NCBI RefSeq assembly: GCF_033115175.1
Contig: NC_084829.1
Location: 133,210,996-133,274,995, forward strand
Direction: 5' to 3'
Origin: Lepus europaeus
Lineage: Eukaryota; Chordata; Mammalia; Lagomorpha; Leporidae
DNA length: 64,000 bases
In this document: positions 25,620 to 30,235 of the stretch, piece after piece
How positions within the stretch are numbered: position 1 is the stretch's first letter
How the letters are laid out: each line of letters starts with the position of its first letter
Made by a program: the position numbers and the translations under genes
The notes under the pieces: model-generated
The model's input: only the letters and a program-made list of their open reading frames with translations
What the model was told of the DNA's origin: nothing
The model's database searches: none

Positions 25620-28072
25620 TCATAACTCATAATGGAAAGAAGATTCAAAAGAAGAAAAGGTATCAGATTAACTATCTTACCTTCACCATAAGAAACTACA
25701 TTTTCGATATAATAATTCCTTAAAGAAGAAAATAATAAAGAAAATAGCAGAAATAAATGAAATTGAAGACAAATAGAGAAAATCCATAGCCTAGTTTAGA
25801 CATATGAGAGTGTTTTCGTCTACTTATGCATTGCATACAGACAATTAATTTTAATTTAGATTCATATGGTAGACAATTTGTGCTTCCAAGCTTAGTAAGA
25901 TATTTGGCCATATACTAGATCATTATATCTAGTCACTGTTTTATAAATTATTTAGAAGTTCATAGGATAAGCTTGACAGTGCTACTTTTGTAGCCCAAAA
26001 ATGTAACATTTAAATGAAATGCATGTGCTTTAAATTTGTATTAATATTTTGTGCATACCCGTCTTCATTTCACAGTGGTTTCGCGTATTGCTGAATTAAT
26101 TGTTTTAGGCATGAAAACCATCAGAATTTTCTGAAGTGAACATCCTGCCTTACAAAGATGAAGAAGTACAGTGCCATTGAATTAGTCACGAATGCTTACT
26201 TTGTTATTTTTGCAAGCTTTGCCAAACCAAAACTCTTTCAGGGGTTTATTTTACCTCTAAATGGAAGGACCAATTCCTAGGAGGGAAATTACATTTTGCG
26301 CATTACAGTTAAAAATTATGTTTACTTTATTTTATTTTTGCAACAGAAGAATTGTGACAAAACAATTTTCTCGTTGCAGCCACTATTTGCCAAGACAACC
26401 TTTAAAAATGTCTCTCATTTTCCTTTCTGAGAACTCTGTTATTTCAGGTATGTTTGCTCTCTCTGTTTTTCTGCCAGCTGTGCAAATTTTTGTAAAACAG
26501 CTTCAATATGAATCTTTTATGACTGTTCTTCAGTCATCTGAGTTATACCGAGCATGCAAGGCATAAGAGATATCCACTTTGGATACTGGTGCAGAGTGAG
26601 AGCAGCATGCAATCCACACAAAGGAAATTTGATCCTCTAACAGCTAATTAAAAAAGCATTACTTTCCACCAAGGCTGACCTCCAGCCCAAGAAAGGATAA
26701 AGATGGCTATCTGTCAATCATGTTTACCTAACAAATTCTGGCACGGGATCATGATGAATGGACAGATCTAAAAAGGGACGATATTGCTCAGAACTCTGAG
26801 GTACTCTTAATACCGCCTTTAAAGAGGCAGAAGACCTCATCAGTAATTTGAAACCCCTGCCTCAGTACCAGGGATACACCAGGGCTAAATTTGCCTGTCA
26901 GACACCAGATACAAGAAGGGCAGTAGAAACGTATTTTCACATCCTCCAGGATTTCGATGTCGGGGTATTTAAGAGATCACCATGAGTTTGTGGAGTCAAA
27001 TATTTGTATTCAGATCTTTTATAATCTTCTCAGTTGCTTGGTAATAAGAGAAAGACCCAGTAGTAGACGATGTTTGTCCTTTCCTGAAGTTACCCCCAAA
27101 CCACCTAGCACAAAGAATCTTTGAAGTCATTTAGTCCATGCCCCTATTTCCAGGCAGGCAAGTAATTTTGTTTTCTTCTTCAGCAGTAAGAATGCTAAGA
27201 GATGAGTCTATACTTGAAGTCACAATGCTATTTTAGAGATAGAAAGCTTTAAAGCTAGACATTTCTCTTAAATCTAAACCAAATTCTACTCTTTTTAAAG
27301 CAACATCTCAATCTGCCTTTCACTTAAATTCAAATAATTATGTCTTTGCTATCAGCACAAAATATTGCTATATCCTTTCCCCATGGGTACCACATTGAAG
27401 AGCACTCCTCTAGGGAGCAGGTGCCAGCTCTGATACTCTCTGATTCACTCAGAGTATCATTGTCTCTGCAGACTTCCGCACTTGGAGGAATTGGAACCTT
27501 TGCCAACACTGTCTTGACTACATGATCCATTCCTGTATGGCTTGCTTTTATCTATTTTAATACTTATTTTGGATTACACTAGGGGGGAATTGATCTTTTA
27601 AAGGAAAAATAAAAATAATGCTACTAACAAAACAGTACTAGGGGTATAGAAAATAGAAAGTCAGTGATTATTTGGATTCTTTCGACCAACATTTTGAGCT
27701 TCAGAAACTGCATCCAGAGAGCACAGGGAAGCAAAAACTAATCTGACCAGGCATGTTAATAGGGTGGCTTCAGGGTTCTTACCTCTTGGGATCCCATTTA
27801 TGAATTTTGGATTTATTTTATTTCATTTTGCTTACTCAGGGTGAGGGCATGATCTTTAATATCTCTCTCTGTATCATCTTTGTTCAGATTGTTTTTATTT
27901 CTTTCTGGAATCACATGATAGATGTGAAAGTGTTTTATTTTTTCAATGTATCCAATTAAATATTGTGAAGCTTTCTCACCCATTGACCAAGCAGCTTCTC
28001 TAATGCGGTCATATCCATTCTTGGCATTTTCCTGGTGACCACATACAGCTTTTATAATCCACTAATAATTTT
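25620..28072. other. Largely repeat-free DNA, candidate conserved elements
   Basis: I recognise no interspersed repeats over about 2.4 kb, which is unusual in this window. 26712-26727 reads TGTCAATCATGTTTAC, a PBX/TALE-like TGTCAATCA directly next to a forkhead-type TGTTTAC. A short hairpin lies at 27431-27459. The longest open frame (101 codons, 26261-26566) has no known motif. Regulatory function is only an inference from repeat depletion and motif content. Confidence 0.35.
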
Positions 28073-28097
28073 TCTCTAGTTACTTATTTATTTTTTT

Positions 28098-29903
28098 ACA
28101 TCACAACATTGTTTATTATGTGAATTTTTTACAATACAAACAAAAAATACAGAAATGCAATATATGAATACAGCTAAATGCAGAATGGTGGCTTTTTTTT
28201 TTCTCTTCAAGAGGCCATTTTTCCCCCATTTCTAGTCAAATAAAGAGGCTGCATATAGGTAGAAACAGGTTGGTCGTTAACTTCACAATTTGGCTTAGAA
28301 ATGATCTATAAATGCATTTTTCCCCTGCTACTTACCATAAATTGTAAGAAGGGAGTAAAAGGAAAGTTTCCCTGTTGGTTCCTACCTTATGAAAGATGCT
28401 ACTTTCTATTTTAGCAGGGCCAATAAATGGAAAATATCTAAATTAAATGTTATTTCAGAAATGAAGCAGTAATGAGATTCTGGCTAAAGAGGGCACTAAA
28501 TGAGAATAATATATATTTAAAGAATCCAAAACAAACAAAAAAAGGTTGTTATAAAAAAGCTCTAGGTGCACTGAAAGCATATAGGTTTACTTTTTTCCAT
28601 GTGTATTTTAAACAATGGAAGTGTCAAAAAATAGGGTCAACTGTGTTAGACTAAATTACATTTTTGTATATGCTGCACTAAATGGAACCTCTGTACTATA
28701 ATTATCATAGAGAAGCAAAGTTTGCATCATATTATGGCAATTTATCCTCAATGAAAACTTTCCAGAGTCCTTTTATTTTGGAATATCCTGTAAACAATCA
28801 AACCACCAGAACATGATTGTACAACAGTAAAATGTTCTCTTGCATTAAATTGAAGACATCTGTTTAATTAAAAAAAAAGAAAGAAAAAACAAAAGAAAGG
28901 TACTTAGAGCTGTTACTTTCCAAGTACGTAACACCCTAGTCAATTCAAGGTGTCTTAATCTCCATCAAGAACAACAGAAAAATAATTTTTGTCATGTTGT
29001 TAAATCCATCATTATGGATAAAATTGGTGCAAATTGGTCAAACAGATCTAACAAACACTGATGTCCAAGCTGGCATATTGGCAACTAATATGTAGCTGGT
29101 GGTCAATAGAGAATTTAAAAGATCTTCCCTTTTTTCTTGTTCTTTTCCAAGGTTCTTGAAGAGTTCTGTTGTTCTAATATATGTTGCTGAGCTTCCCAGT
29201 TTGCTTTCTCCTCCTCAAACTGACGACATTTTTCCTCTAATTCTTTGTGCTGTGCTTCCAAATTCTTTTTCATTTGCTCATGGCGCTGCTGGAGCTCAGC
29301 TTCAGAGTCCTTCAGTTTCTGAACTTTTTCTTTGACCTTCATTTCAAACACCTGCTCCATCTCCATCTCCATCTTCTTCATCTTAGCTACATGCTCCCTT
29401 CATTTCTCTTCCATTTGTGCCAGAGGGCTCTTAGTAAGCTGCCCTTTATTCTTGTTGTTATCAACTCCATTGTAAGTTACAGCTGCCAGTTTTCTGCTTC
29501 TGTAGTTCTCATAGTGAACATTATTAGTAACATCTTTCAAGTCCTGCATGTGCGTTCTTATCAACATATTTCTTAGAATAGTAAAATCACAATGTTCACC
29601 ATTTTCAACTTCAGCAACACCCCAAGGATACTGCCTTCCTCTGACCCTCTTGCCGTTAACTTCAATGATAGCATTACTACCTACCACAGCAAGTGGCAAA
29701 CGGTCCTTTATCTTTTTAACAAGTTTATTTTCTTCTTCATCATCCGTTTCAGGAAATTCATATATTTTAATTTTATGTTCTTGGATTTTTTTCATTATCT
29801 GTTTTTTAAACTGTTGGCATTCCTCTGGTGTGAGTGTGTCTGCTTTGGCAATAAGTAGAATGATATTCACTTTTTGTGCAAATGTTTCATAAACTCAATA
29901 TCC
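28098..29903 (-). pseudogene. SEPTIN7: SEPTIN7 retropseudogene, 5'-truncated, 3' part of chimera
   Basis: The intact protein is a filament-forming GTPase of the septin cytoskeleton. The copy retains roughly the last 262 of about 437 residues, from a DIEFMK segment just before the AKAD (G4) motif, through the septin unique element and the C-terminal coiled coil, to the native ending KNKKKGKIF and stop (29115-29117). It has no introns. It is broken by a one-base loss near 29870-29874 and an in-frame TGA at 29400-29402 (after QMEEK; the frame then resumes with [10 protein letters not shown]). The P-loop and everything upstream are absent. About 1 kb of 3' UTR (29114-28098) follows, with AATAAA at 28112-28117 and the A-tail 14 bp beyond. 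It is inert as a protein gene. Confidence 0.95.
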
Positions 29904-29905
29904 AA

Positions 29906-30012
29906 AAAAATATGGAACGCTTCACGAATTTGCGTGTTATCCTTGTGCAGGGGCCATGCTAATCTTCTCTGTATCGTTCCGATTTTAGTATATGTGCTGC
30001 CGAAGCGAGCAC
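29906..30012 (-). ncRNA. U6 snRNA pseudogene, full length, 5' part of chimera
   Basis: The minus strand reads a complete 107-nt U6, from GTGCTCGCTTCGGCAGCACA to TTCCATATTTTT. Compared with the mammalian U6 I know it has three transitions: T to C in the TAAAAYTGG stretch, and two G to A changes in the CTGCRCAAGGATRACAC stretch. The conserved ACAGAGA box (ATACAGAGAAG) is intact. No gap is needed. Upstream on the minus strand there is no TATA box near -30 and no proximal sequence element visible, so it probably has no Pol III promoter of its own. Two extra T residues lie between U6 and SEPTIN7 (29904-29905) and could belong to either. Confidence 0.95.
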
Positions 30013-30025
30013 TCTCTAGTTATTT

Positions 30026-30235
30026 AATCTAAGTATTTGCAAAGGCATGTGGCAATGAAGAGGGAAAAGTTGTATAAACTCTCCATGCCTCAGTTTATTA
30101 CAAATAATACCATGCATGGTAACAGTGCCTTCTCATGATTTGTTGTAGAGATTACAAGAATAGTATAGTGCTCAGAACAATTTCTAACATATAAGGAGCA
30201 CTACAAATATAGTAATTATCAAGAGCTAGACATTC
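30026..30235 (-). mobile_element. MIR SINE, antisense, decayed
   Basis: Reversed MIR blocks follow in order: CTCCATGCCTCAGTTTATTA, then GTTGTAGAGATTACAAGAAT and GTGCTCAGAACAATTTCTAA and CATATAAGGAGCACTACAAA. It lies right beside the insertion site of the U6-SEPTIN7 chimera. Confidence 0.65.

Follow-up and report, generated by a model that had tools for sequence, protein, structure and literature searches.

Downstream of a complete U6 small nuclear RNA (snRNA) copy, the window (the whole 64-kb stretch of DNA analyzed here) carries a copy of a SEPTIN7 messenger RNA. The locus raises the question of whether both entered the genome together and, if so, how two such different RNAs came to be copied as one. 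It is almost certainly a chimeric processed pseudogene that results from a single insertion event. The way in which the two RNAs were joined admits more than one explanation, and these are weighed below.

Organization of the U6–SEPTIN7 insertion

The features of the insertion, in their order along the minus strand, are the following:

30013 to 30026, minus strand: 5' copy of the target-site duplication, on the U6 side, TAAATAACTAGAGA, with an ATT/AAAT motif resembling an L1 endonuclease site at its outer edge
29906 to 30012, minus strand: full-length 107-nt U6 snRNA copy (Rfam RF00026, 110.9 bits), with three differences from the likely U6 gene L003
29904 to 29905, minus strand: two T of ambiguous origin at the junction (U6 tail or SEPTIN7); the insertion has seven T, L003 five, and the parent gene an A and then TTGG
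28098 to 29905, minus strand: 5'-truncated SEPTIN7 cDNA without introns, comprising the coding sequence from LDIEF onward and about 1 kb of 3' UTR
28112 to 28117, minus strand: AATAAA polyadenylation signal, by direct reading, 14 bases before the A-rich tail
28087 to 28097, minus strand: 11-base A-rich tail AAAAAAATAAA, of which at most the first three A are possibly templated; the parent matches through GATGTAAA and then differs
28073 to 28086, minus strand: 3' copy of the target-site duplication, on the tail side, TAAGTAACTAGAGA, matching the other copy at 13 of 14 bases

The U6 copy is complete, lies at the 5' end of the insertion in the same sense as the cDNA, and is joined directly to the copy of a spliced SEPTIN7 mRNA. 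The polyadenylation signal and the A-rich tail close the 3' end, as a preliminary description of this DNA had noticed. The Rfam model RF00026 aligns over its whole length (model positions 1-105 of 105; E 4.3e-28), and no other Rfam match at or above the gathering score was found within the window. The three differences from L003 fall at U6 positions 32, 67 and 75. L003 is itself the likely true U6 gene, and stretches upstream of it were read by eye as what we take to be TATA-like and PSE-like motifs. No separate A tail follows the U6 half.

The name SEPTIN7 rests on protein matches: the open stretch 29894-29400 (minus strand) matches Septin-7 chains in the PDB (E 7.7e-100) and the Pfam family Septin (PF00735, E 8.6e-56). 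A search of the 2.93 Gb genome to which the window belongs identified the parent as an intron-split SEPTIN7 gene (G000:C24:38397825-38418250), whose exons are 94-100% identical to the copy. Seven exon segments of this parent align in order with the insertion, from which the introns are absent. Three parent exon parts (273 bases) read as N and were excluded from the comparison; elsewhere, the copy differs at 29 of 1555 bases (1.9%, or 98.1% identity), including 23 transitions, with 6 differences at CpG. It also has three indels, namely a 1-base deletion and two small ones in the UTR. The RF00026 match, the Septin-7 matches and the parent exons thus bear out the preliminary reading of a complete U6 joined end-on to SEPTIN7 cDNA. 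That reading set the junction just before the AKAD segment, which proved wrong: the SEPTIN7 part opens with TTGGATATTGAG (LDIEF), about 18 codons earlier. This start had been masked by the 1-base deletion, which lies 30 bases into the cDNA (position 31) and breaks the frame before VNII. Because the lost base shifts the frame, the first ten or so SEPTIN7 codons are missing from the translation. The copy also carries an in-frame stop, and nothing in its sequence suggests a present function for the insertion.

The exon search gave 29 SEPTIN7 matches in this genome, which include further SEPTIN7-like places. Two of these are rather young partial copies (G000:C6:119706124-119706743, 97%; C14:48288977-48289474, 94%), and there are several older ones. 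In a scan of four further SEPTIN7 loci (L018-L021), no U6 match appeared (E up to 0.01).

Evidence for a single insertion

The two copies of the duplication TCTCTAGTTAYTTA, at 28073-28086 and 30013-30026, match at 13 of 14 bases. Among 1000 pairs of stretches (20 and 40 bases) drawn at random from the window, none reached this score, the best being 11, and these two are the only places in the 64 kb within one mismatch of the duplication. The repeat had been described as 13 bp with 12 matches; it is real, and that description was one base short. A duplication private to either half was not found. The best 10-mer matches were 6/10 and 7/10, whereas controls averaged 6.65 and 7.28; 473 of 500 controls for the one and 257 of 300 for the other scored at least as high. 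Furthermore, no difference in divergence was detected between the U6 half (3/107) and the SEPTIN7 half (29/1555; Fisher p 0.46), although a U6 of 107 bases gives such a test little power. The proposal of a single retro-insertion therefore holds, with a duplication at the outer ends only and no detected difference between the halves. A divergence of about 2% corresponds to several million years if neutral rates are 2-3 per 10^9 per year.

The target site, TT/AAAT, is close to the consensus TT/AAAA and not identical to it. Fragments of L1 ORF1 and reverse transcriptase are present in the window itself, and the chimera fits one insertion by the LINE-1 machinery acting in trans. The left flank (27500-28072) finds only itself in the genome, in a search that leaves aside simple repeats and words of very high frequency. 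Just outside the insertion lies an open stretch of 75 codons (27830-28055, minus strand). It was considered as a coding exon and rejected, since it has no Pfam family, a single PDB match at E 0.68 and no genomic match other than itself.

The junction and the joining of the two RNAs

At the junction, the insertion reads CCATA, seven T and then GGATATTGAG. The corresponding region of the parent reads GCCA TTGG and the U6 of L003 ends with five T; therefore, up to two T may be shared by the two sides. The parent exon starts with ACTGAAGCCA immediately before the break, and these ten bases are absent from the insertion. The break therefore lies 10-12 bases inside the exon, and a junction at the splice site is ruled out.

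These features suggest the following course of events. The LINE-1 endonuclease would nick the target at an ATT/AAAT-like site, and a polyadenylated SEPTIN7 mRNA would undergo target-primed reverse transcription in trans, starting at its tail. Once copying had come to a point in the coding sequence that lies 10-12 bases downstream of a splice junction, it would continue on the U6 snRNA, from the 3' end of that RNA as far as its first base. Sealing of the product into the target would then duplicate 14 bp. LINE-1 as the enzyme, like the origin of the single template, is what we infer from this structure. The preliminary description spoke of direct evidence for joint reverse transcription of the two RNAs. 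This is fair as far as it goes, and the structure does not tell joining as RNA from a jump of the reverse transcriptase.

The base composition of comparable junctions bears on this choice. For 31 of the 33 U6 junctions considered, those of U6/L1-like chimeras, a usable relative of the partner was available (69-100% identical, with the alignment extended gapless to the break); other positions drawn from the first ~150 bases or so of the same relatives served as controls. A T adjoins the partner break in 25 of the 31 junctions, whereas the controls give a mean of 16.4 (p 0.0018). The T belongs to the lost side in 15 junctions and to the kept side in 15, and 6 have it on neither side. This excess, which is no more than suggestive, would fit a nascent cDNA that pairs with the U6 tail or an RNA that is cleaved near U before ligation.

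There is an even chance that the two molecules were joined as RNA: a ligase such as RTCB would have linked the 3' end of U6 to a fragment of SEPTIN7 mRNA, at the 5' end of the latter, before the chimera was copied. The junction can be read in this way with no base lost or added, as a U6 with exactly five T, like L003, followed by TTGG. Moreover, ligation of U6 to L1 RNA is described in a 2026 review (PMC13247085, citing Moldovan et al. 2019). However, the T excess at the breaks of L1-like partners is not predicted by plain random breakage, although cleavage at U would predict it.

A slightly less than even chance goes to a template switch: on reaching the 5' region of the SEPTIN7 RNA, or a point within it, the L1 reverse transcriptase would have moved over to the oligo-U end of U6, assisted by one or two A:U pairs. 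The two T that can be common to both sides of the SEPTIN7 junction agree with such a jump, as does the T enrichment at the 31 other junctions (mean T-run 1.45 versus 0.95, p 0.016), and template switching is the model given in section 6 of PMC4476161. However, the T enrichment equally fits U-specific cleavage of the RNA before ligation, and in one of the sets of U6 copies collected in this genome (that of 32 places) the start of the U6 part at its very 3' end was forced by the search pattern. The SEPTIN7 junction thus fits both ligation and a template switch.

Since U6 and SEPTIN7 copies are both common in this genome, two independent insertions might have come to abut by chance. This is very improbable: the 13/14 duplication stands at the outer ends with none at the inner ends, the halves have no detectable difference in divergence, and the U6 lacks its own A tail. 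For two successive insertions, it is the shared duplication and the similar divergence, and these two alone, that make them appear disfavoured. Finally, a splicing accident, by which the spliceosome attached U6 to a SEPTIN7 exon before retrotransposition, would agree with a junction so near the start of an exon, but it is just as improbable because the junction is off the splice site and ACTGAAGCCA is missing from the insertion.

Other U6 chimeras and the place of this insertion among them

In this genome, 134 places lie within two mismatches of a 29-base stretch of the U6 end, the window's own copy being absent among the 100 matches listed. Sixty-one U6 copies were classed by hand, namely that of the window and 60 other places (the union of sets of 48 and 32, 20 of them common), a sample that is neither random nor complete. 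One is the likely gene L003. Fifteen have an A-rich or short tail followed by flanking sequence, and 13 of these have an exact repeat of 8-18 bases. Thirty-one run straight into repeated L1-like sequence that is shared from the junction on with other loci or with the window, a class of which only part is tied to L1 by domains. Within the 260-1500 bases covered downstream, eleven of the 31 have an exact repeat of at least 10 bases, some of these repeats being A-rich. Three copies (L010, L046 and L060) are of unclear class. Five adjoin a SINE that we take to be of C type, and in two of these (L067 and L068) U6 is joined in sense to the 3' end of the SINE, with 14/14 duplications. In human, snRNA/Alu chimeras are rare (PMC4476161, section 6).

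The remaining six copies are joined to other A-tailed sequences. Their best 14-mer match to the 5' flank, at the A-tail end, is 13 of 14 bases for the window, 11 for L011, 14 for L044, 13 for L045, 14 for L062 and 13 for L083. The partner of L011 is SMARCA5-like, from a PDB match whose name is cut to 'subfamily A membe', the number 5 being presumably right. Its parent exons (C10:34174564-34176103) are 97-100% identical, and another intron-free copy (97%) lies at C43:94279320. With 5/107 differences in U6, a weak duplication and 132 bases read as N, L011 is only a candidate U6/mRNA chimera. The partner of L045 belongs to a family with 56 matches, including itself and fragments, from which no intron-split parent stood out, and that of L062 occurs at seven genomic places, itself included. 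In L083, the ~120 bases after U6 contain TATA-like and AATAAA motifs and look, by eye, like the end of an LTR transcript; the locus also has an A tail and a 13/14 duplication. At L086 (G000:C20:40403200-40406390), the partner of a U6 chimera other than that of the window has tens of retrocopied relatives, for the most part 90-96% identical. Many of these lack their 5' end and some contain inverted pieces (56 listed matches, counting itself). It is an mRNA-like sequence of which this genome has produced copies in large numbers.

The partner and the junction had been thought possibly unique. The type of event does not seem to be so, given these other chimeras of U6 with polyadenylated RNAs in the same genome, one with the SMARCA5-like partner. 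In mammals, chimeras of U6 and processed pseudogenes carry a full-length U6 in sense at their 5' end. Such chimeras were reportedly described by Buzdin (2003) and Garcia-Perez (2007), whom a 2015 survey of U6 cites. That survey (PMC4476161) names both U6/L1 and U6/pseudogene chimeras and covers 39 placental species. As in the U6/processed-pseudogene chimeras that it presents, the window combines U6 with a trans-mobilised mRNA copy, a target-site duplication and an L1-type cut site; the partner gene and the host species are the only differences found. With the U6/LINE-1 chimeras (PMC4476161; PMC13174262), it shares a full-length sense U6 at the 5' end, a 5'-truncated partner and one duplication, whereas its partner is the cellular SEPTIN7 mRNA and not L1. 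In human, 180 U6/LINE-1 loci appear in figure 3 of PMC13174262, which leaves both mechanisms open. No U6/SEPTIN7 chimera was found in the titles and abstract openings of the papers listed, and the portions of PMC5408686 covered contain nothing on U6 chimeras.

It had also been proposed that a rabbit example would show that the mechanism acts in lagomorphs. Such chimeras are already known in this order: table 2 of PMC4476161 lists 133 U6 copies analysed in rabbit, 30 of them associated with retrotransposons, and 78 and 41 in pika, with mRNA partners not separated out in the table. Moreover, the host is probably another leporid than European rabbit, and a hare would agree with the data. The one IgG-type Fc found in this genome is identical to chain 2vuo_A, which we take to be rabbit IgG Fc, at 106/111 and 94/107 residues (200/218), and thus differs at 18, which we judge to be too many for one and the same species. 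On the same contig there are many further constant-region-like matches; leporids have many IgA genes.

The insertion adds SEPTIN7 to the list of U6 partners and changes no concept. Nevertheless, with its known parent, clear duplication and clear prediction of an empty site, it is a clean and fairly young (~2% diverged) example that is well suited to dating and junction analysis. We suggest, tentatively and as a possibility that is rather doubtful, that in this leporid lineage U6 joins many polyadenylated RNAs (mRNAs, a high-copy retrosequence and C-type SINE) in addition to L1, and that the partner breaks favour U. If this is true, such a natural set of junctions would allow the ligation and template-switch models to be tested.
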